Shown piece after piece: positions 7,461 to 59,277 of a stretch of DNA of 64,000 bases. This stretch comes from Fictibacillus nanhaiensis (GTDB lineage: Bacteria; Bacillota; Bacilli; Bacillales; Fictibacillaceae): positions 372,001 to 436,000 of the forward strand of contig JAEACG010000002.1 in the NCBI GenBank assembly GCA_016401345.1, in the 5' to 3' direction. The position numbers were made by a program, and so were the translations under genes. Every line of letters begins with the position of its first letter. The first letter of the stretch is position 1. Below the pieces are notes generated by a model, which ran no database searches, was not told where the DNA came from, and was given only the letters and a program-made list of their open reading frames with translations.

Positions 7461-7592
7461 GGTTAATTTCCGTTCCAGGATGCTCGCTTTCCGGGGGGCG
7501 TGCGGTGAGCCACCTCGACACTTTGTGTCCTTAGGTGTCTCACCTGTCCCGCTGATCCCCCAGGAGTCTCGCACCTTGCACTCCAATCAACA
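7461..7592 (-). repeat. Interspersed hairpin repeat, short form (copy B)
   Basis: Read on the minus strand it runs GTTGATTGGAGTGCAAGGTG to CCTGGAACGGAAATTAACC. Its apical stem is GGTGAGACACCT/AGGTGGCTCACC, which differs from the CCCTT/AAGGG of copy C but still pairs. It is in inverted orientation to copy C, 250 bases away. Confidence 0.85.
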
Positions 7593-7840
7593 AACCAAAG
7601 ATGTATTTTACAAAGCTATTTCATAGGCGTTCTTGAAGTCGGTTATTGACTTTCATGATGCTTGTTTTTTAGATTTGATCATTTCACGCTTAGTCAAAAG
7701 CAACTGTGCTTCCTTTGTTTACTAGTAAACCTACCGTATAGTCTTTATTGTCGTTTGCTCGGTGAGAAGCTTGTAAGGTGTTGCACTATTCAATTTGTCT
7801 TTGGAGCTTTTGGATTTTTTCTTTTTGCTACATTTGCAAG
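7593..7840. other. Unassigned sequence between two inverted repeat copies
   Basis: AT-rich, no convincing ORF with a ribosome binding site and no hairpin plus T-run. I see nothing assignable in it. Confidence 0.5.
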
Positions 7841-7968
7841 TTGATTGGAGTGGAGGATGCGAGACTCCTGCGGGACGAGCGGTCAGGTGAGACCCTTAAT
7901 GGCGCAAAGCGGCAAGGGGCTCACCGGTCGCCCCGCGGAAAGCGAGCACCTGTAACGGAAATCAACCA
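7841..7968 (+). repeat. Interspersed hairpin repeat, short form (copy C)
   Basis: Starts TTGATTGGAGTGGAGGATGC and ends AGCACCTGTAACGGAAATCAACC. Contains GGTGAGACCCTT, the loop GGCGCAAAGCGGC and AAGGGGCTCACC, the best-conserved hairpin of the family. It is a near-twin of copy D at 36891. Confidence 0.88.
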
Positions 7969-8823: not shown

Positions 8824-9667
8824 ATTAATAATAGAATTCATACGAAAAATAAAGATTAATCCCGCCTTTTGGGTCGTCATTTTCGGTGCGGTCTATACGG
8901 GGCATTTTAGGGAGATTATCGTCTGGTTTTTCGTCGTTCTAATTCATGAGATGGGTCATTTTGCTGGTGCCCGTCTTTTTAATTGGAGAGTTTCAAGAAT
9001 AGATCTTCTCCCTTTTGGAGGTGCAGCCGTAGTTGAAGAACATGGCACACGTCCGATTCACGAAGAGGTTTGGGTAGCTGTTCTTGGTCCGTTACAACAC
9101 ATTTGGCTTACCGGAGTCGCATATTTCTTAAGTCAGACTAACCTCATCTCTGCGAATGATTTTTATTGGTTTTTTATTTTGAATCTTACCTTATTTTTAT
9201 TTAACCTTCTTCCGATATGGCCACTCGATGGTGGAAAAGTTTTATTTGCTCTAGTATCCAAATGGATCCCATTCAAAGAAGCACAGCAGAAGTTTTTAAT
9301 AGGATCCGGTGCTTTGTTGGTCATAGGCAGTGCATGGCAGCTCTCTTTACAGCCATCGCATTTGAACCTTTGGGTAATCTGTCTTTTCCTAGGCTTAGCT
9401 CATATTCTCGAATGGCGCAGCAGACATTATGTGTTCATACGGTTCTTGCTGAACAGAATGAAGCAATCAAGCATAAAAGGTACTCGTACGATTATCGTAC
9501 CTCCAACATGGTCACTTTCAAAAGTCACTCATCACTTGGTAAAAGGTGTTTCCCATTCTATTGTTATTAAGAATTTTAATCCTATTACGATCAATGAAAA
9601 GCAACTCTTAGAAGCTTATTTTCATAATCATTCTCCCGAGTGTGCAATTGGAAAAGTTTTTCGTTAG
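8816..9667 (+). CDS. spoIVFB: Stage IV sporulation protein FB (site-2 type intramembrane metalloprotease)
   Basis: SpoIVFB cleaves pro-sigma-K in the mother cell. The roughly 283-residue protein has several membrane segments, the zinc motif HEMGH near residue 43 (VLIHEMGHFAGARLF) and the third zinc ligand in NLLPIWPLDGGK near residue 136, both diagnostic of site-2 proteases. A C-terminal CBS-like region follows. Starts are TTG only: AAGGTGAT at 8803-8810 fits TTG 8816 better than TTG 8810, but the choice is not certain. The gene overlaps spoIVFA by 8 bases, so the two are translationally coupled. Confidence 0.94.
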   Translation: MIKLIIEFIRKIKINPAFWVVIFGAVYTGHFREIIVWFFVVLIHEMGHFAGARLFNWRVSRIDLLPFGGAAVVEEHGTRPIHEEVWVAVLGPLQHIWLTGVAYFLSQTNLISANDFYWFFILNLTLFLFNLLPIWPLDGGKVLFALVSKWIPFKEAQQKFLIGSGALLVIGSAWQLSLQPSHLNLWVICLFLGLAHILEWRSRHYVFIRFLLNRMKQSSIKGTRTIIVPPTWSLSKVTHHLVKGVSHSIVIKNFNPITINEKQLLEAYFHNHSPECAIGKVFR

Positions 9668-9697
9668 AATAGGATACAGAGCAAAAAACAGGGAGAT

Positions 9698-11185
9698 GTG
9701 AATGGAACGATGCAGCGCGTAGTAATCAATGCAGTAGGAATGGAAAAACGTACAGCGTTATTGGAGAATGAAAAACTTATAGAATGTGCGGTCCATAGGC
9801 CGACTAAAAGTCCGTTAACAGGAAACATCTATAAAGGAAAAGTTCAAAAGGTTTTGCCTGGCATGCAAGCTGTGTTTGTAGATATTGGAACGAGCAAGAA
9901 CGGCTTTCTTCATAAAGACGATTTGCCTGCTTATCAACAACTTTCTGGTGAGGCACAAAAGAAAGTATCCATCTCAAGCCTTATTAAAGAAGGAGAATCG
10001 ATACTTGTTCAAGTCGTTAAAGAAGAGACTGGAGATAAAGGTGCAAAATTAACAGCCCTTATTTCGTTTACTGGCCATCTGCTCGTTTATTTTCCATTCA
10101 CTCCTCACGTTGGAATATCCAAAAAGATAAAAGAATCTCAACGCGCAATGCTACAAGACTGGGGAGATTGTGTTATAAATAATCAAGAAGGTCTGATCAT
10201 TCGGACAGGTTGCGAAGATTTTCCTGAGCGCGAAATGAATCAAGAACTTGAAAGTCTTAGAAGACAATTGAACGAAGTGCAAAAATGCTCAGATGGTAAA
10301 AAAGCACCTGATCTAATCGTGCAACCTCCATTTTTTTATCCACTCTTAGAGAGATGGATAAATCATAACGTAGAAGAAATTATAGTTGATGATTATGAAA
10401 CGTATCAGCATGTCAAAGAGTATGCGGCTTCCTTTCAGAATCCATTTTCTGTTAAACTGTACAATGAAAAAGAGCCTCTTTTTCGTAAATTAGGAATTGA
10501 CACAGACATTGAAAAAGCACTTTCTCCGTTAGTATGGTTAAAGAATGGGTCTTCGCTTTATTTTAATGTGACAGAAGCGTTAACAGCGATCGATGTGAAT
10601 ACGGGTAAATTCACTGGAAAAAAAGATCGGTCTAAGACTGTTGTTGAGGCAAATAAGATAGCTGCAAAAGAAATAATGAAACAGCTTCGTTTGCGTAATA
10701 TTGCCGGCATGATCGTCATTGACTTTATAACGATGCAGTCAAACGAAGACAAAGAACTAATCAACAAGGTTATGCGAGAAGCATTAAAGAATGATTCTGC
10801 TACCATGATTTTGCATGGTTTTACGAAAATGGGCTTGTTTGAAATGACTAGAAAAAAAGAAAGGCCTTCATTACTTGAGACTCTTGCTACAAGGTTCGAT
10901 CGCCATATGATGGATGGGTATATCCTGCGCCAGGAAACGTTGTATTATGAGATGGATCGGATAATGAAAGAATACACATACGAAGATGACGAGGCTTTAT
11001 GGATGGAAGTGCCACAACACTTTTCTGAATGGCTGAAAAAGAATCCTGACAAGCTGAAACTTTTAGAGAAACAGCATGATATTAAAGTGGTTGTATCTAT
11101 CGGTTCGTCAAACAGAGAAATGGCAGTCAGACAATCAGGAAAAATAGATGAAATAAGAATCAGGATGTTAAAAGATTCACATTGA
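9698..11185 (+). CDS. RNase E/G family ribonuclease lacking the zinc-link
   Basis: The 495-residue protein begins with an S1-like RNA-binding domain (about 35-120; GNIYKGKVQKVLPGMQAVFVDIG). It has both metal-binding aspartate motifs of RNase E/G, TAIDVNTGKFTGK near 292 and IVIDFITM near 347. The family fold continues to about 420. In E. coli RNase E and G a CPxCxG zinc-link follows the MTRKRxRxSL segment. Here MTRKKERPSLLETLATRFDR has no cysteines, so zinc-mediated dimerisation seems lost. B. subtilis 168 lacks this family, but several other Bacillaceae carry it between spoIVFB and rplU. GTG 9698 or ATG 9710 could be the start; the ribosome binding site AGGGAGA is badly spaced for both. Confidence 0.85.
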   Translation: MNGTMQRVVINAVGMEKRTALLENEKLIECAVHRPTKSPLTGNIYKGKVQKVLPGMQAVFVDIGTSKNGFLHKDDLPAYQQLSGEAQKKVSISSLIKEGESILVQVVKEETGDKGAKLTALISFTGHLLVYFPFTPHVGISKKIKESQRAMLQDWGDCVINNQEGLIIRTGCEDFPEREMNQELESLRRQLNEVQKCSDGKKAPDLIVQPPFFYPLLERWINHNVEEIIVDDYETYQHVKEYAASFQNPFSVKLYNEKEPLFRKLGIDTDIEKALSPLVWLKNGSSLYFNVTEALTAIDVNTGKFTGKKDRSKTVVEANKIAAKEIMKQLRLRNIAGMIVIDFITMQSNEDKELINKVMREALKNDSATMILHGFTKMGLFEMTRKKERPSLLETLATRFDRHMMDGYILRQETLYYEMDRIMKEYTYEDDEALWMEVPQHFSEWLKKNPDKLKLLEKQHDIKVVVSIGSSNREMAVRQSGKIDEIRIRMLKDSH

Positions 11186-20215: not shown

Positions 20216-21844
20216 GTGAGAATACACATTGTGCAAAAAGGGGACACACTCGACAAAATTGCTGAAAAATACGATGTACCAGTGAATGAATTAAGAAAAG
20301 CAAATCCGGGTTTCTCCAAAACAGATGTAATTGAACGGGGGGAAAAGATTAAAATCCCGATCAAGATGCCTGGTATGAAAAAAGAACAGCCTATTGTACC
20401 GGTTAAAGAAAAACCGGTTGCACCTGTACAAGAGGCTCCGAAGCCAGCACCGGTTAAGCCTGCTCCAAAGAAACCAGCTCCAATAAAACAAGAAAAGAAA
20501 CCAGCTCCAATGAAGCCGGCACCATTAAAACCTGCACCAACCAAGATGGAAAAGAAAGATGCACCAATGAAGAAAGACGCACCAATGAAAAAAGATGTTC
20601 CAATGAAAAAAGATATGCCAATGAAAAAAGATGTACCTATGTTAAAAGATCAACCGATGAAAGCACCGATGAAGCAGCCCATGGCCCCTATTCATGACAA
20701 GGACTTTGCAGGGATGGTGGAGTCGTCAAATCTTGGACATTATGTGCCAATGGGGTACCCAAATCAACAACCAAACATAGCGAACATGCCAAATATGGCA
20801 AATCAACCAAACATAGCGAACATGCCAAATATGGCGAATCAACCAAACATGGCAAACCAGCCGAATATGGCAAACCAGCCGAACGTGGCGAGCAAGCATG
20901 GGATCTATGCAGGAAAAGATGGCTATGCGCCAAATAAACATCCATTTTTGATGGAAGAATCATCTGGAATGATGCAGAACATGTATGGTTCTATGCCGCC
21001 AATGTTTCCAAAACCACAAACCTATTCTCAAATGCCACAGGGATATGGAATGATGCCTCCACAAGGGTTCAGCGGAATGCCTCAACTCTATGGTGGCGGA
21101 TATCCACAAAGTGGGCAACAAGGTGGAGGTGGCATGCAGCAAGGAGGATCTATGCCTTTTGGTGAATATCCTGATTCTGATATGGACCAGATGCCTTCAG
21201 GAGAATACACACCTGGTGGGCAACAACAAGGTATGCAGGATATGCAAATGGGTATGCAGCAGCCAGGTTCAATGAGTATGATGCCTATGGGTATGCCGCA
21301 AGGATTTAGCGGAATGCCGCAGATGGGTCAAATGGGAATGGGTATGATGCCACAAGGCGGCGGAATGCCGGGAATGACCCCGATGGGTATGATGCCACAA
21401 GGCGGCGGAATGCCAGGAATGACCCAGATGGGTATGATGCCACAAGGCGGTGGAATGCCACAGATGGGTCAGATGGGTATGATGCCACAAGGCGGCGGAA
21501 TGCCACAGATGGGTCAGATGGGTATGATGCCACAAGGCGGCGGAATGCCGGGAATGGGTCAGATGGGTATGATGCCACAAGGCGGAGGAATGCCACAGAT
21601 GGGTCAGATGGGTATGATGCCACAAGGTGGAGGAATGCCACAGATGGGTCAGATGGGTATGATGCCACAAGGCGGAGGAATGCCAGGAATGGGTCAGATG
21701 GGCATGATGCCGCAGGGTGGAGGAATGCCAGGAATGCCTGGGATGCCTCAACAGATGCAACAAGGTATGCCAAACCCATATTCACAAGCACAATCTCGTG
21801 AAATAGATGAGAATGTTACGGAAGAAACGGAAGAAGATGAATAG
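20216..21844 (+). CDS. safA: SafA-like LysM spore coat morphogenetic protein with Met/Gly-rich repeats
   Basis: SafA directs coat and cortex attachment in sporulating bacilli. The start is GTG 20216, giving MRIHIVQKGDTLDKIAEKYDVP, a LysM domain at residues 1-50 that begins like B. subtilis SafA; AGGAGGGAG lies upstream. After it come lysine/proline/alanine-rich repeats (about 60-140, with repeated APMKKD units), NQPNMA-type repeats (about 180-220) and a 3' part of nine 15-residue MGMMPQGGGMP units. Only the LysM domain aligns clearly; the rest is low complexity. Position after nadA matches B. subtilis. CATATACT at 20175-20182 resembles a sigma-E -10 box, but no good -35 is seen. Confidence 0.88.
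   Translation: MRIHIVQKGDTLDKIAEKYDVPVNELRKANPGFSKTDVIERGEKIKIPIKMPGMKKEQPIVPVKEKPVAPVQEAPKPAPVKPAPKKPAPIKQEKKPAPMKPAPLKPAPTKMEKKDAPMKKDAPMKKDVPMKKDMPMKKDVPMLKDQPMKAPMKQPMAPIHDKDFAGMVESSNLGHYVPMGYPNQQPNIANMPNMANQPNIANMPNMANQPNMANQPNMANQPNVASKHGIYAGKDGYAPNKHPFLMEESSGMMQNMYGSMPPMFPKPQTYSQMPQGYGMMPPQGFSGMPQLYGGGYPQSGQQGGGGMQQGGSMPFGEYPDSDMDQMPSGEYTPGGQQQGMQDMQMGMQQPGSMSMMPMGMPQGFSGMPQMGQMGMGMMPQGGGMPGMTPMGMMPQGGGMPGMTQMGMMPQGGGMPQMGQMGMMPQGGGMPQMGQMGMMPQGGGMPGMGQMGMMPQGGGMPQMGQMGMMPQGGGMPQMGQMGMMPQGGGMPGMGQMGMMPQGGGMPGMPGMPQQMQQGMPNPYSQAQSREIDENVTEETEEDE
21331..21741 (+). repeat. 45-bp tandem repeat inside safA
   Basis: Nine head-to-tail units of 45 bases encode MGMMPQGGGMP followed by GMTP, GMTQ, QMGQ, GMGQ or GMPG. 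Third-position changes (GGCGGC, GGCGGA, GGTGGA) and two alternating unit types (GMGQ and QMGQ) indicate block duplication. The copy number is likely to vary between strains. Confidence 0.93.
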
Positions 21845-23528: not shown

Positions 23529-23762
23529 TGTGAATTTAATTACTTAAGTGGAGCGTATGTATAGTGGTCCAGCGTAGAAAGCGGGTAGCCTTGGAAAATA
23601 TAAAAAGCAACATCGAATTTCGTAAACAGCCTTTAAATAAGGTATGTCATATGATGCTTTTAAAGAAATCAAATTCACTTTTTATAAGGAATTAAGGGGG
23701 AGCCTATGATACAATAAGCAATAGAAACATACGCTCGTGTTTAGCGTTAGGGAGAGAAGAAT

Positions 23763-25372: not shown

Positions 25373-25560
25373 ACAAACTGTTAATCGTTGCAGGAATCGT
25401 TCTCATTATTATAGGATTAGTAGGGACGTATATAGGTAAACTTCCTGGAGATATGGTATGGAAAAAAGGAAACACAACTGTGTATTTTCCAATCGTGACG
25501 TCCATTATCGTTAGTATTGTACTTTCCTTGATCTTCATGATCATAGGTCGATTTAAATAG
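25369..25560 (+). CDS. DUF2905 small membrane protein
   Basis: A 63-residue protein with two hydrophobic segments (about 3-20 and 40-60) separated by [19 protein letters not shown], the signature of DUF2905. The TTG start overlaps the ruvB stop, and ACTGGAGGC lies upstream. Function unknown; the family is often found beside ruvB in Firmicutes. Confidence 0.88.
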
Positions 25561-25578
25561 AAAGCAGGAATACATGAC

Positions 25579-31310: not shown

Positions 31311-31377
31311 TGTTGATCCTAGGCTTGTTTTATCTTGGGAGTTTTTCTGAAAGGTCGTTGTTTAAAATAGCAGCTTT

Positions 31378-31457
31378 GAAGTTGTAAGGTGCTGTACTCG
31401 TGGAGACTAATCGCACGCTCCATGGTAAATGTGCAACATGGAGCCGAAATCAACTTC
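31378..31457 (+). repeat. Degenerate remnant of the interspersed hairpin repeat (copy G)
   Basis: About 80 bases retain AAGGTGCTGTACTCGTGG near the left end and ATGGAGCCGAAATCAACTT at the right end, matching the family termini with the central hairpin deleted. Flanking TTTTTCTGAAAG and CTTTCAGAAGAAAA are complementary to each other. Confidence 0.6.
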
Positions 31458-31530
31458 TTTCAGAAGAAAAATGGATACGAAAAACAACTTAAGTTTATTA
31501 TGTTTTATTTATGAACATTCACAGGACAAA

Positions 31531-36890: not shown

Positions 36891-37021
36891 TTGATTGGAG
36901 CGGAAGGTGCAAGACTCTCGGCTAGGACAAGCGGTCAGGTGAGACCCTTAAAGGCGCAAAGCGGCAAGGGGCTCACCGCCTGCCCCGCGGAAAGCGAAGC
37001 ACCTGGAGCGGAAATCAACCA
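36891..37021 (+). repeat. Interspersed hairpin repeat, short form (copy D)
   Basis: Runs TTGATTGGAGCGGAAGGTGC to GAAGCACCTGGAGCGGAAATCAACC. GGTGAGACCCTT and AAGGGGCTCACC enclose GGCGCAAAGCGGC. Closest to copy C. It lies upstream of the relA promoter. Confidence 0.9.
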
Positions 37022-40081: not shown

Positions 40082-40361
40082 CAATTCCAAAATGAAAACT
40101 GATGACGAAGAAAAGTAGCTTTACCCCACAGGGTTAGAGATGAGATACCATGGCTGAAAGTATTTCTCCCTGATGATAAAGTGAAAGACACTTCATAGGT
40201 TTTAATTCGAACGGTTAAGTTTTGACCTCAGTAGAGTTACACGTGGGCAATCGTTACTTGCATAATGAGGAAGCTTTTTATAGCTTCGAAACAGGGTGGC
40301 ACCGCGGGAAAATCCCGTCCCTTATGAAATGACTGATTTCATAAGGGACGGGATTTTTTTA
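40082..40361 (+). ncRNA. T-box leader upstream of hisS-aspS
   Basis: The T-box sequence AGGGTGGCACCGCGG lies at 40293-40307. A terminator follows, with a 19-bp perfect stem (40312-40330 with 40336-40354) and seven T. The T-box segment and the 5' arm can form the competing antiterminator when uncharged tRNA binds. A CAT triplet at 40149-40151 (in ATACCATGGCTG) is a plausible histidine specifier; the loop assignment is by eye. hisS is the first gene, which fits tRNA-His sensing. Confidence 0.93.
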
Positions 40362-40425
40362 TTTGTTTTTTTATAAAAGGCTATCTTCTAAAGGGTTGTT
40401 TCTATTTTAATCTTCGCTGACTTCG

Positions 40426-40552
40426 TTGATTGTAGTGAAAGGTGCGAGACTCCTGCGGGACAGGTGGGCAGGTGAGACACTTAAAAGTGAAACTTACGAA
40501 TGTGGCTCACCGCCTGCCCCGCGGAAAGCGAGCACCTGTAATGGAAATCAAC
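40426..40552 (+). repeat. Interspersed hairpin repeat, short form (copy E)
   Basis: Runs TTGATTGTAGTGAAAGGTGC to GAGCACCTGTAATGGAAATCAAC. Its apical stem is GGTGAGACAC/GTGGCTCACC with a changed loop. It lies in the transcribed leader between the T-box terminator and hisS. Confidence 0.88.
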
Positions 40553-40629
40553 ACTTACAAGAGCAACATTGAGAAGAGAACAGCCTTTTATCTTTAACGA
40601 ACAACCAAAAAACGGGAGGATGAAAGAAA

Positions 40630-41898
40630 ATGAGTATTAACATTCCAAGGGGAACAAAAGATATACTCCCAGGAGAAGTAGAAAAATGGCAGCTGATCGA
40701 ACAAAAAGCAAAAGAAGTATCAGCTCGATTCAATTATAAAGAGATTCGAACACCGATCTTTGAGCACACTGATCTGTTTCAACGCGGTGTAGGAGACTCA
40801 ACAGATATCGTTCAAAAAGAGATGTATACGTTCAATGATCGAGGTGACCGCAGCTTAACTCTTCGACCAGAAGGAACAGCGCCTGTAACTCGCTCTTATG
40901 TTGAAAATAAATTGTTTGGATTACCAGGTCAGCCTGTAAAACTCTTTTACATTCAACCTATGTTTCGATACGAAAGACCTCAAGCAGGTCGATATCGTCA
41001 ATTTGTACAGTTTGGTATTGAGGCGATGGGTTCCGCCGATCCTGCCATCGATGCAGAGGTAATTTCACTTGCGATGACGGTATACAAAGAGCTCGGCTTG
41101 AATAAGCTCCGTCTTGTGTTGAATACGTTAGGTGATGCTGAGAGTCGCAAATCTCATAAGGAAGCTTTGATCGCACACTTTGAACCTAGAATCGAGGAAT
41201 TCTGTTCCGATTGCCAAAATCGTTTATTGAAGAATCCTTTAAGAATTTTAGATTGTAAAAAAGATCGAGATCATGAGCTCATGAAGAGTGCTCCTTCAAT
41301 TCTTGAACACTTAAACGAAGAATCAAAAACGTATTTTGAAGAAGTGAAAACGAGCTTAGATGCGATGAACATCGAGTATGTGATCGATCCAACACTCGTA
41401 CGTGGACTTGATTATTATAACCATACTGCTTTCGAGATCATGAGTGAGGCTGAAGGGTTTGGAGCCATCACAACACTTAGTGGGGGCGGTAGATACAATG
41501 GTCTTGTTGAGGACCTTGGAGGACCAGCTACGCCAAGCATAGGATTTGCGATGAGCTTAGAACGCTTGTTATTAGCACTTGAAGCAGAAGGTGTCACACT
41601 TGAAACAGAAGAAGAATTAGATTGTTACGTTGTTGCACTTGGTGATGAAGCGAAACAAAAATCAGTAGCGATCTTAAGTCAGCTTCGTCAAGCAGGGATA
41701 AAGAGTGACAAAGATTATTTAGATAAAAAGATGAAAGCACAATTTAAAGCAGCTGACCGATTGAAGGCGAAGTTTGTAGCTATTTTAGGTGAAGAAGAAC
41801 TTTCAAAAGGAATCATCAACGTGAAGAATATGGATTCTGGAGAACAATCAGAAGTAGCGATCGAGAAGTTGAGCACATTTTTGAAGCAAGGCAAATAA
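40630..41898 (+). CDS. hisS: Histidyl-tRNA synthetase
   Basis: A class II synthetase of 422 residues. Motif 2 is [15 protein letters not shown], the histidine A motif is [14 protein letters not shown] near 258, and motif 3 is [15 protein letters not shown]. The C-terminal anticodon domain runs from about 325. GGGAGGATGAAAG precedes the start. aspS follows after 14 bases, so both enzymes share the T-box leader. Confidence 0.98.
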
Positions 41899-49863: not shown

Positions 49864-51006
<1,143 letters not shown>

Positions 51007-51014
51007 AATAATGT

Positions 51015-51067
51015 GGAAAAACTGGCTTACTAGGACGTCAAATGACCTAATGAAGCCAGTTTTTTTC
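51015..51067 (+). terminator. Intrinsic terminator after mnmA
   Basis: AAAAACTGGCTT pairs with AAGCCAGTTTTT, with an inner ACTAGG...CCTAAT partial stem, followed by a T-run. Confidence 0.8.
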
Positions 51068-51093
51068 TTTTTGAACGAATTAAGATATGATAA

Positions 51094-51187
51094 TGAGCTC
51101 GTCATAGCGGCATGAAATGCTCGCTGGACGAGCGCCATCCGAGAAATACGAGCGCCAATATAAGCATCCACAAAAAATTATGCGCCA
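51094..51187. repeat. Short CGAGCGCC-type repeats before the TPR gene
   Basis: CGAGCGCC occurs at 51129-51136 and 51149-51156 (20 bases apart). Related forms are GAGCTCGTCATAGCGG before and TGCGCCA at 51181. The block is GC-richer than its surroundings and holds no ORF. Confidence 0.4.
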
Positions 51188-51240
51188 GCTACCTTCATTT
51201 GTTATACTTTTGAAGGAAATTAAAAGTGGGGGTAATGAAG

Positions 51241-55966: not shown

Positions 55967-56219
55967 GAAGATCAAAAATCGCTGAAAGAGAAAAGTACGT
56001 TTCAGTCCTTCCAAAAGAGAGAAACATCCATCGGCTGAAAGATGTTTTAGGAAGAAGAGAGACAGAAAGCTACTCTGGAGTGCAGAAGGAAAATCTGCCG
56101 TTATGCCGCGTTAAGGCTTTAATCAAGGTGATATGCTTATTTAAAAGCGTATAACCAGGGTGGTACCGCGTGAATTCAAACTCTCGTCCCTGTATTTTTT
56201 ATAGGGATGGGAGTTTTTT
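55967..56219 (+). ncRNA. T-box leader upstream of alaS
   Basis: AACCAGGGTGGTACCGCG at 56153-56170 is a textbook T-box sequence. The terminator pairs AAACTCTCGTCCCTGT (56178-56193) with ATAGGGATGGGAGTTT, followed by TTTTT. A GCT triplet at 56069-56071 (in GAAAGCTACTC) is a plausible alanine specifier by eye. It should raise alaS expression when tRNA-Ala is uncharged. Confidence 0.93.
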
Positions 56220-56320
56220 ATTTTGCCACATGCCATAAGTTTGTAGGTTTAGAATTGATTTTGTACCTCATAGTTCTTATAAAAGATTGTTGCTTTGAAT
56301 TTTTTTCCTTCTTATGCAAG

Positions 56321-56574
56321 TTGATTGCAGCGGAAGGTGGCGAGACTCCTATGGGACGAGCGGTCAGTCCGAAAAGTGGAAGTGGCTCGTTCAGCCCCGA
56401 CTAGCAAAAGTTGAATGGTTTATGAAGGCGTATTTTGCCTTCTTAACCGTTTAACTTTTGACCTCGAGGGGCTAGCCACTGCAACTAGACAGGTGGAGAC
56501 TCCTAATGGCGCATAGCGGCAGGAAGCTCACCGCACGCCCCATGGAAAGCGAGCGACCTGGAGCGGAAATCAAC
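56321..56574 (+). repeat. Interspersed hairpin repeat, long composite form (copy F)
   Basis: Begins TTGATTGCAGCGGAAGGTGG and ends CGACCTGGAGCGGAAATCAAC. The middle holds a second hairpin (CAAAAGTTGAAT...GAAGGC with GCCTTC...TTTAACTTTTG) that the short copies lack. It lies between the T-box terminator and alaS, inside the transcribed leader, and is the inverted counterpart of copy A. Confidence 0.87.
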
Positions 56575-56640
56575 TAGCTTTCATAGCAATGAATACGAAA
56601 TCAGTCTTAATATTTATTTAAAAAAAGGAGAATGAAAACG

Positions 56641-59277
56641 ATGAAAAATTTGACTTCAGCTCAAGTTAGACAGATGTTCCTTGATTTTTTCCAAGAAAAA
56701 GGCCATGGTGTAGAACCTAGCGCTTCCTTAGTACCTCATGAGGATCCTACACTTTTATGGATCAACAGTGGCGTTGCAACACTGAAAAAATATTTTGACG
56801 GCCGCGTGATTCCTGAGAACCCTCGTATCACAAACGCACAAAAATCAATCCGTACGAACGATATTGAGAATGTTGGTATCACAGCAAGGCACCATACGTT
56901 CTTTGAGATGTTAGGAAACTTCTCGATCGGTGATTATTTTAAAGTGGAAGCTATTCTTTGGGCATGGGAGTTCTTAACGAGTGAAAAATGGATCGGCTTT
57001 GATCCTGAGAAACTTTCTGTAACGATCCACCCAGAAGACGATGAAGCATTTGATATTTGGACAAAACAAGTAGGGTTACCTGAAGAGCGTATCATTCGTT
57101 TGGAAGGAAACTTCTGGGATATCGGTGAAGGGCCAAGTGGACCTAACACAGAAATCTTCTATGACCGCGGTGAAGCTTACGGCAACGATCTATCTGATCC
57201 TGAACTATATCCAGGTGGGGAGAATGACAGATATCTTGAAGTATGGAACCTGGTGTTCTCTCAGTTCAACCACAACCCGGATGGCACATATACGCCACTT
57301 CCTAAGAAGAACATCGATACAGGTATGGGACTTGAGAGAATGGTTTGTGTGATCCAAGACACGAAGACGAACTTTGAAACAGATCTATTCATGCCGATCA
57401 TTAAAGAAACAGAAAAGCTTTCTGATACGTCTTATGGCTTGAGTACAGAAACCGATACTGCGTTTAAAGTAATCGCTGACCATGTACGTACGGTAAGTTT
57501 TGCGATCGGTGATAGTGCTCTACCATCAAATGAGGGAAGAGGGTATATCCTTCGACGTTTGATCCGAAGAGCGATTCGTTTTGCGAAAAAGATCAACATC
57601 AACAAGCCGTTCATGTATGAACTCGTTCCAACTGTTGCAGACATCATGGTAGACTTCTACCCGGAAGTAAAAGAAAAAGTTCCGTTCATCCAAAAAGTCA
57701 TCAAGACGGAAGAAGAGCGTTTTCATGAAACGATCAACGAAGGTCTTGCTATCTTAGAAGATGTTATGGCAAAAGAAAAAGAAGAAGGAAGAAAAGTCAT
57801 CTCTGGTAAAGACGCATTCAAGCTTTACGATACATTTGGTTTCCCATTTGAGCTTACACAAGAGTATGCAGCTGAAAACGGAATGGATGTAGATTTAGAA
57901 GGCTTCGAAAACGAGATGAAGGCTCAACGTGAACGTGCGCGTGCAGCAAGACAAGAAGTAGACAGCATGCAAGTTCAAGGTGGAATTCTTTCTGATATCA
58001 CCGTGAAAAGTGAATTCAGAGGATATGACAGCTTAACAGGAGAAGCGAAAATTTTAGAAGTACTACAAAACGGTGAGCGAGTGGCGATGGTCGCTTCTGG
58101 AGAAGAAGCTCAAGTCATCCTAGATGTGACACCTTTCTACGCTGAGAGCGGTGGACAGATCGCTGACCAAGGAACGATAAAAGGTAAAGAGCTTTTACTT
58201 AGAGTGAAGGATGTTCAAAAAGCACCTAACGGACAAAATCTTCATACCGTAGTTGTTGAAAAAGGTGTTCTTGAAAACAATATAGAAGTTTCTGTCGAGG
58301 TTGACCCTGAGATTCGTGCAAAAGTAGTAAAGAACCATACTGCTACTCACCTTCTTCACCAAGCATTAAAAGATGTGCTAGGAACGCACGTAAATCAGGC
58401 TGGATCTCTTGTACAAGAAGGTCGTTTGCGTTTTGACTTCACACATTTTGGAAGCATTTCTTCAGAAGAGCTTGAGAAGATCGAAGAGATCGTTAACGAA
58501 AAAGTATGGGGTAACATTCCTGTTGAAAAGATGGTTAAGAACATTACCGAAGCAAAAGCGATGGGTGCAATGGCACTATTCGGTGAGAAATACGGTGAAA
58601 CGGTACGCGTTGTAAAAGTAGGAGACTATAGTCTTGAGCTTTGCGGTGGGTGTCATGTTAATAACACTTCAGAGATCGGTTTGTTTAAGATCGTATCAGA
58701 GTCTGGTATCGGTGCAGGAACACGTCGTATTGAAGCTGTTACAGGTGAGAACGCGTACCGCTTGATGAACGGCCAAGTCCAGCTATTAAAAGACACGGCA
58801 GCTAAGTTGAAAACAAATCTTAAGGACGTGCCACAGCGTATAGACGCATTAAACGAACAAATTCGTGAGTTGCAAAAAGAGAAAGAATCTCTTGCAGCTA
58901 AGATTGGAAACATGGAAGCAGGTAGCCTTGTTGATGAGGTTCAAACGATCAACGGAGTTTCTGTTATCGCTAAAAAAGTGAACGGTATGGATATGAATGG
59001 TTTGCGTTCGATCGTAGATGACTTAAAGAATAAACTACAAAGTGGAGTTGTTATTCTTGGTGCGGAAAACGGTGGTAAAGTAAATATCGTAGCGGGAGTA
59101 ACAAAAGATTTAGTGACAAAAGGTTATCATGCGGGTAACCTAGTAAAAGAAGTGGCTGTCCGTTGCGGCGGAGGCGGTGGTGGCCGTCCTGATATGGCTC
59201 AAGCTGGAGGTAAAGATCCCGAAAAGCTGCAAGAAGGTATAGATTCTGCAGTTGAATTGATCAAAACCGTTTCCTAA
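56641..59277 (+). CDS. alaS: Alanyl-tRNA synthetase
   Basis: An 878-residue enzyme of the expected length. The class II core is at the N-terminus (RTNDIENVG and [18 protein letters not shown]). The editing domain has the zinc motif HTATHLLH plus CGGCH near 666, and the C-Ala domain ends [18 protein letters not shown] start at ATG 56641, since AAAGGAG is 10 bases upstream and the protein then begins [14 protein letters not shown] 56632 is only one base from that site. Confidence 0.98.

Follow-up and report, generated by a model that had tools for sequence, protein, structure and literature searches.

The BOX, RUP and SPRITE elements of pneumococcus are described, in the available text of the source, as short palindromic repeats that occur in many copies, carry inverted ends and are located largely between genes, and target duplications have been reported there for BOX and RUP (PMC3049150). 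Likewise, the available text of a second source presents bcr1 as a repeat of the Bacillus cereus group and Bhal-1 as an intergenic stem-loop repeat of Bacillus halodurans, of which 36 copies are listed (PMC2267715). Here, we describe a repeat family in Fictibacillus, two copies of which (E and F) are located in the leaders of the genes hisS and alaS within the window, that is, the whole 64-kb stretch of DNA that was analyzed. Compared by description, as far as the available text of these sources goes, and not by sequence, the family is likewise a MITE-like palindromic repeat, as are BOX, RUP, SPRITE and bcr1, and likewise an intergenic stem-loop repeat, as is Bhal-1. Copies E and F are probably short palindromic mobile elements of the MITE type, carried as tolerated passengers behind terminators and forming no part of the T-box switch.

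Two copies behind T-box terminators

Exactly two T-box leaders were identified in the window by Rfam, both with scores above the gathering score of 93 for RF00230 (Table 1), and both copies are located between the T-box terminator and the start codon of their gene, just as the preliminary description had stated. The distances of 65 and 102 bases given there refer to the core and not to the whole element, a larger unit in which outer arms flank the core on both sides. The whole of copy E starts about 13 nt past the end of the hisS U-tract, with T-rich bases in between, and copy F starts about 48 nt past the alaS U-tract, i.e. not at the U-tract itself. A simple consensus scan identified no promoter-like site between the terminator and the start codon in either leader, and the copies are thus presumably contained in the mRNA only upon antitermination, as had been proposed. 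The common orientation of the two copies relative to transcription also held for E and F, but did not extend beyond this pair, with a reversed copy at valS.

Table 1. Features of the window, with positions counted from its first nucleotide.
Feature	Positions	Strand	Basis or remark
hisS T-box leader	40093-40325	+	Rfam RF00230, 120.2 bits
hisS T-box terminator, stem 40310-40356 plus U-tract	40310-40366	+	terminator scan, sequence
copy E, left 8-bp flank TTATAAAA	40371-40378
copy E, complete element including outer arms	~40379-40585	+	ends GGCTATCTTC / GAGAACAGCC
copy E, 128-nt core	40425-40552	+	portion noted first
copy E, right 8-bp flank TTTTATCT	40586-40593
hisS, histidine--tRNA ligase	40630-41898	+	NCBIfam TIGR00442
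alaS T-box leader	55973-56194	+	Rfam RF00230, 105 bits
alaS T-box terminator, stem 56178-56216 plus U-tract	56178-56224	+	terminator scan, sequence
copy F, whole element, long form	~56273-56606	+	left end from comparison with relatives
copy F, core	56320-56574	+	same orientation as alaS
second repeat-like module within copy F	approx. 56361-56500		matches to hisS leader L083, weakly L065
alaS, alanine--tRNA ligase	56641-59277	+	NCBIfam TIGR00344
further family copy, long form	1457-1726	-
further family copy, close to terminator	7462-7591	-
further family copy	7840-7966	+
further family copy, behind ordinary co-directional terminator	36891-37019	+
empty site, filled in five relatives (element or deleted form)	25549-25568	+	ATAGAAAG or close variants on both sides

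The structure of the 128-nt core is a long hairpin (z -5.9), the pairing of which has been maintained by compensatory changes. The 43 full cores of a 1.256-Mb portion of the genome, most of them away from T-box genes, were aligned; 19 of the 32 base pairs showed such changes, a number that none of 500 shuffles attained, and 96.6% of the cells paired, compared to 89.3% after shuffling and less than 48% when the alignment was slid. Copy E with its arms is predicted to form one long hairpin, separate from the T-box terminator, which stays intact in the predicted fold. In its short form the element measures 207-223 bp with inverted ends, as judged from the element records with recognizable ends, and its length alone argues against an encoded transposase. 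Among 151 element records, in which some copies are recorded twice, 25 distinct cases, some of them orthologous, showed terminal inverted repeats with GGCTGTTTTC-like sequences at either end; in the remaining records, i.e. most of the 151, the ends were degenerate or not recognized. No Rfam family scored above its gathering score at 40426-40552, and the sub-threshold overlaps at the repeat (two microRNA models, tsr24 and HgcG) were far below theirs. Copy F contains a second repeat-like module, pieces of which matched the repeat in hisS leader L083 (85% over 33 nt and 81% over 37 nt), with a weak match of the module to L065 (E=0.05).

The foot of the stem, GCC followed by duplicated U-rich bases, raises the question of whether the inserted element could terminate or pause transcription a second time, downstream of the T-box terminator. 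Right ends of this form were observed at leuS of G014 (..AAAGCC-TTTTATTT) and at a copy on contig C20 (..CAGCC-TTTTATTT), and the foot of copy E is predicted to pair ATAAAAGGCT with AGCCTTTTAT. However, the run of U-rich bases is short, and some of it is paired in the predicted structure. A simple terminator scan identified no terminator where E or F ends, and selection should act against a strong terminator fixed upstream of essential genes, yet the copies persist. We therefore consider a second terminator very improbable.

Mobility and landing sites

The family is abundant and mobile, with 8-bp repeats at the readable ends, a hairpin kept by compensatory changes, and copies that abut terminator tails. 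A covariance model, which misses copy F, yielded at least 145 repeat matches in the 4.28-Mb genome, a lower bound because only 150 of 1438 candidates were scored. Judged by hisS, this genome belongs to Fictibacillus, the sixteen closest named loci being 73-97% identical and loci L039-L048, at 88-97%, all coming from this genus. The core was matched in all 18 Fictibacillus genomes and in 41 of 60 genomes overall (18 of the genus and 42 outside it), representing 16 of 30 genera.

The cleanest empty site, at about 25.56 kb, coincides with a stop codon: five relatives are filled there with the element or a deleted form, flanked by the sequence listed in Table 1 or a close variant of it, whereas the source genome and five other genomes are empty. 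At valS, six of the nine relatives that were read share one uninterrupted sequence at the point where G000, G010 and G014 carry a reversed copy, and the leader of G004 differs in sequence and has no family match. Across the 25 distinct cases, the 8-bp flanks matched at 4.16 of 8 positions on average, compared to 3.15 in shuffled pairs (0 of 5000 as high), and six cases were alike at six or more positions, compared to 2.2 expected (p=0.005). Two pairs were perfect, one of which, TTCTCAAA, is not a T-run. The flanks of copy E agree at only four of eight positions, so that a target duplication is not readable at the hisS site.

The content of individual sites has also turned over. The best match to copy E at another site of its own genome is 94% identical; at hisS itself, identity is 76-78% to the copies of five relatives and 93% to that of G015, and the copy of G005 is alignable only piecewise. 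That copy E is nearer to a copy in its own genome than to the hisS copies of five relatives indicates re-insertion or conversion at this site. Furthermore, the alaS leader of G015 contains a reversed copy followed by what appears, by eye, to be the right arm of an older forward copy, and one element thus seems to have landed in another.

A genome-wide pattern search for element ends gave 45 end-like matches compared to 19 in a backwards control, and no autonomous partner in the form of an end pair more than 600 bp apart (up to 2.5 kb) was identified in 1.256 Mb of the genome and ten 65-kb regions. The 8-bp duplication and the GGCT ends of the element had pointed to the ISL3 family, of which both are traits. 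The ISL3 transposase domain (PF01610, DDE_Tnp_ISL3) was absent from all 18 genomes, and mobilization of the ISL3 type is thus unsupported in the genus.

The landing sites were studied in a 1.256-Mb sample (positions 1-856000 of contig C12 and 1-400000 of contig C20) with 1299 called genes, using simple scripts of our own to call genes and terminators. Of 68 elements kept, 43 were located in 929 co-directional gaps, 18 in 184 convergent gaps and 7 in 184 divergent gaps; for 30 of the 68 elements, and for 21 of the 43 full cores, the gap contained no predicted terminator. Among the full cores that were alone in a terminator-bearing gap, 14 of 22 started within 15 nt of the terminator tail (all 14 within 10 nt), compared to 4.5 (sd 1.6) expected from random placement in the same gaps, a number that none of 3000 simulations raised to 14. 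Without the two T-box gaps, 12 of 20 abutted the tail (4.3 expected; 2 of 3000 simulations), and in co-directional gaps only, 8 of 14 did so (2.1 expected). These tests were based on core positions extended by a fixed 50-nt arm, with the distance set to 0 where arm and tail overlapped; a first abutment test (p=0.0025) used model ends that are AT-rich and may have crept into the U-tracts.

The preliminary description had alternatively suggested that the repeat inserts near strong terminators. Proximity to terminators is borne out by these results, while a preference for strong ones was rejected, with only 3 of 84 stronger co-directional terminators filled as compared to 14 of 225 among all. Relative to the terminator that it followed, the element occurred in both orientations (19 same and 17 opposite among 36 terminator records). 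Nor were T-box tails with the word TTT[TG]ATTT filled more often than tails without it (4 of 26 versus 19 of 94), and this short motif thus does not explain the choice of site.

We hypothesize that the insertions are the work of a transposase supplied in trans that favors T-rich tails, so that the element would enter the tail of an intrinsic terminator or the position right beside it, as well as other sites, and duplicate eight AT-rich target bases. More tentatively, and in our view rather unlikely, the insertion machinery could read the U-tract itself, or the hairpin together with the U-tract, which would make T-box and attenuator leaders recurrent landing sites in many Bacillales lineages; an insertion would then duplicate the U-tract and could give the switch a second hairpin-plus-U unit downstream of it.

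Several other repeats and RNAs were observed in the course of this work. Degenerate family-like remnants, recognized by eye, are located behind ordinary terminators at ~23530-23660 and 31311-31494 and are variably present in relatives. A tandem repeat with a unit of ~20 nt (GAGCGATTCCAGAGATTTAT in several relatives) is located behind a terminator at ~51000-51226 and in the same gap in ten relatives; its copy number varies widely between species, and in one relative the gap includes a run of N. Another tandem array, at 21293-21787, has a 45-nt period with units that are 68-92% alike. Finally, a gene for OLE RNA (497 bits) was identified at positions 9531-10169 of locus L216 on contig C12 of the same genome.

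T-box leaders among other terminators and among relatives

The covariance search identified 22 T-box matches in the genome, 21 of them over the cut-off. Five of the 22 leaders carry a copy, in gene sense at hisS, alaS and cysE, reversed at valS and as a half copy at serS, and the other 17 are without the repeat. For ordinary co-directional terminators, a copy within 120 nt was found at 14 of 225 in the same genome and at 8 of 69 in G010, the latter from a spread 400-kb sample. By the standard set in the preliminary description, its idea would fall if copies were no commoner behind T-box terminators than in other co-directional gaps, and an enrichment was obtained only just. The genome taken alone gave 5 of 22 T-box leaders compared to 22 of 294 ordinary terminators (p=0.03), but without the two discovery genes hisS and alaS the comparison fell to 3 of 20, with no significant excess (p=0.21). 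In ten relatives, 13 of 80 T-box leaders were filled (serS 7, valS 2, leuS 2, tyrS 1 and ileS 1), these 80 being the best-scoring of the 87 T-box matches listed once two hisS matches had been set aside, with the 7 lowest-scoring ones left out and hisS and alaS not included. For the eleven genomes together, 16 of 100 T-box leaders among the matches listed were filled, compared to 22 of 294 ordinary terminators (Fisher p=0.018, uncorrected for relatedness), a value that overstates the evidence because the seven serS cases are orthologs.

By contrast, 17 of 105 ordinary co-directional terminators, at three orthologous sites, were filled in the 65-kb regions around hisS in the source genome and ten related genomes, a result that speaks against a T-box excess; it was left unpooled because these are mostly orthologs of the copies in the window. 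Furthermore, two of 17 other regulatory leaders have a copy, one behind a SAM riboswitch and one behind a pan motif. Here, 17 of 18 leaders were assessed, a glycine leader being outside the called gap, and nine of the 17 have a predicted terminator after the leader. The rule is thus a location behind terminators, though not only there, and a roughly two-fold T-box excess is possible but not established.

Could the two filled leaders then be a coincidence, in a window that happened to hold two filled T-box genes and was noted for this reason? The loss of significance once the two discovery genes are removed, and the many filled ordinary terminators in the 65-kb regions, would fit such an absence of any rule. 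However, the abutment to terminator tails is far above random placement, also when the T-box gaps are left out, and insertions have occurred repeatedly in separate lineages at hisS, alaS and valS, and at hisS in other genera. A mere coincidence of ascertainment is therefore highly improbable.

The recurrence at these sites is evident from the relatives. Leaders with the element were identified, by eye, in 12 of 18 genomes for hisS (with G013, which has an unexplained extra stretch, counted as empty) and in 11 of 18 for alaS, and in 3 of 10 for valS among the matches listed. On a tree of the genus built from hisS plus part of alaS, the presence of the element requires at least two changes at hisS and three at alaS (six when orientation is counted), three at valS in ten genomes, and one each at serS and tyrS in eleven genomes. 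Partial copies have been retained, as a half copy at serS in G000 and as deleted forms at hisS in G002 and G005. Beyond Fictibacillus, a family-like element directly behind the U-tract was found at no fewer than 2 of 64 named hisS loci, one from an Alkalihalobacillus macyae MAG and one from Halalkalibacter alkaliphilus; the model missed the latter element, which was recognized by its arms on visual inspection, and this inspection covered the longer leaders only.

In five hisS leaders from other genera (L060, L063, L083, L095 and L097), 241-314 nt follow the T-box motif and the family model finds nothing; at least L083 holds a different repeat. The hisS T-box site may attract several repeat families. 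In G016, the leader at L339 has an unusually long distance of 437 nt from the T-box tail to the called start codon, with no family match.

We also considered the possibility that the hairpin is a functional part of the 5' UTR of T-box genes, serving in mRNA protection, in processing by RNase III or RNase Y, or in the tuning of translation, which the preliminary description had in part suggested as a role in mRNA processing or stability. The stability of the hairpin and its maintenance by covariation, the repeated insertion at the hisS and alaS sites, and the approximately two-fold higher filling of T-box leaders among the matches listed are what such a function would lead one to expect. However, the covariation was measured on cores that are mostly away from T-box genes, the presence of the element varies among the orthologous leaders, many of which lack it, copies occur in both orientations, half and deleted copies persist, and copies are also found at other regulatory leaders. 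The suggested role is thus unsupported and, in our estimate, improbable, and the comparative pattern of the sequences speaks against a regulatory role of any kind.

We favor the explanation that E and F are mobile passengers. Copies may survive behind T-box terminators because this interval has no promoter or coding sequence, and an insertion there would only extend the 5' UTR of the mRNA produced upon antitermination. The association with T-boxes would then reflect a general terminator rule combined with tolerance, and not a regulatory partnership. What seemed to be a possible partnership of this kind has thereby been turned into a testable rule on where small mobile repeats land, and terminators, including those of the riboswitch type, look like havens for insertion. 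Since empty and filled orthologous leaders coexist in one genus, any effect of the element on the expression of tRNA synthetases is directly measurable.

Relationship to known elements

The family is short, dispersed and present in high copy number, with terminal inverted repeats and, at the readable sites, target-site duplication, all of which are features of MITEs. Strings of the core sequence were not found in the open-access papers searched, and no description of the element or of its place behind T-boxes was found in the titles and abstract starts of the open-access literature. Palindromic repeats of this small, interspersed type, with BOX and RUP as examples, are a known kind of element, and this particular family appears, from the sequence strings and texts searched, not to have been described. 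It may coincide with Bhal-1, with which it was compared by description alone on the basis of the available text of the source (PMC2267715).

The two leaders are full-length matches to the T-box model RF00230 with their terminators, and the repeat is located outside of this model. Compared with BOX, RUP, SPRITE and bcr1, as far as these are characterized in the available text of the sources, the difference is that insertion is here tied to terminator tails and recurrent behind T-box terminators.

In this respect, another class of mobile element is relevant. Group IIC introns also insert behind intrinsic terminator hairpins; these introns are ribozymes of greater size, encode a reverse transcriptase and are not known to duplicate their target. 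The identity of the element with such an intron was rejected, since it is only ~220 bp long and none of the four Rfam matches in the window belongs to an intron family. Both land directly behind terminators, but the element described here is a palindrome of ~220 bp with 8-bp duplications. If its insertion machinery truly reads terminator tails, it would represent a DNA element that follows a landing rule similar to the one of the group IIC introns.
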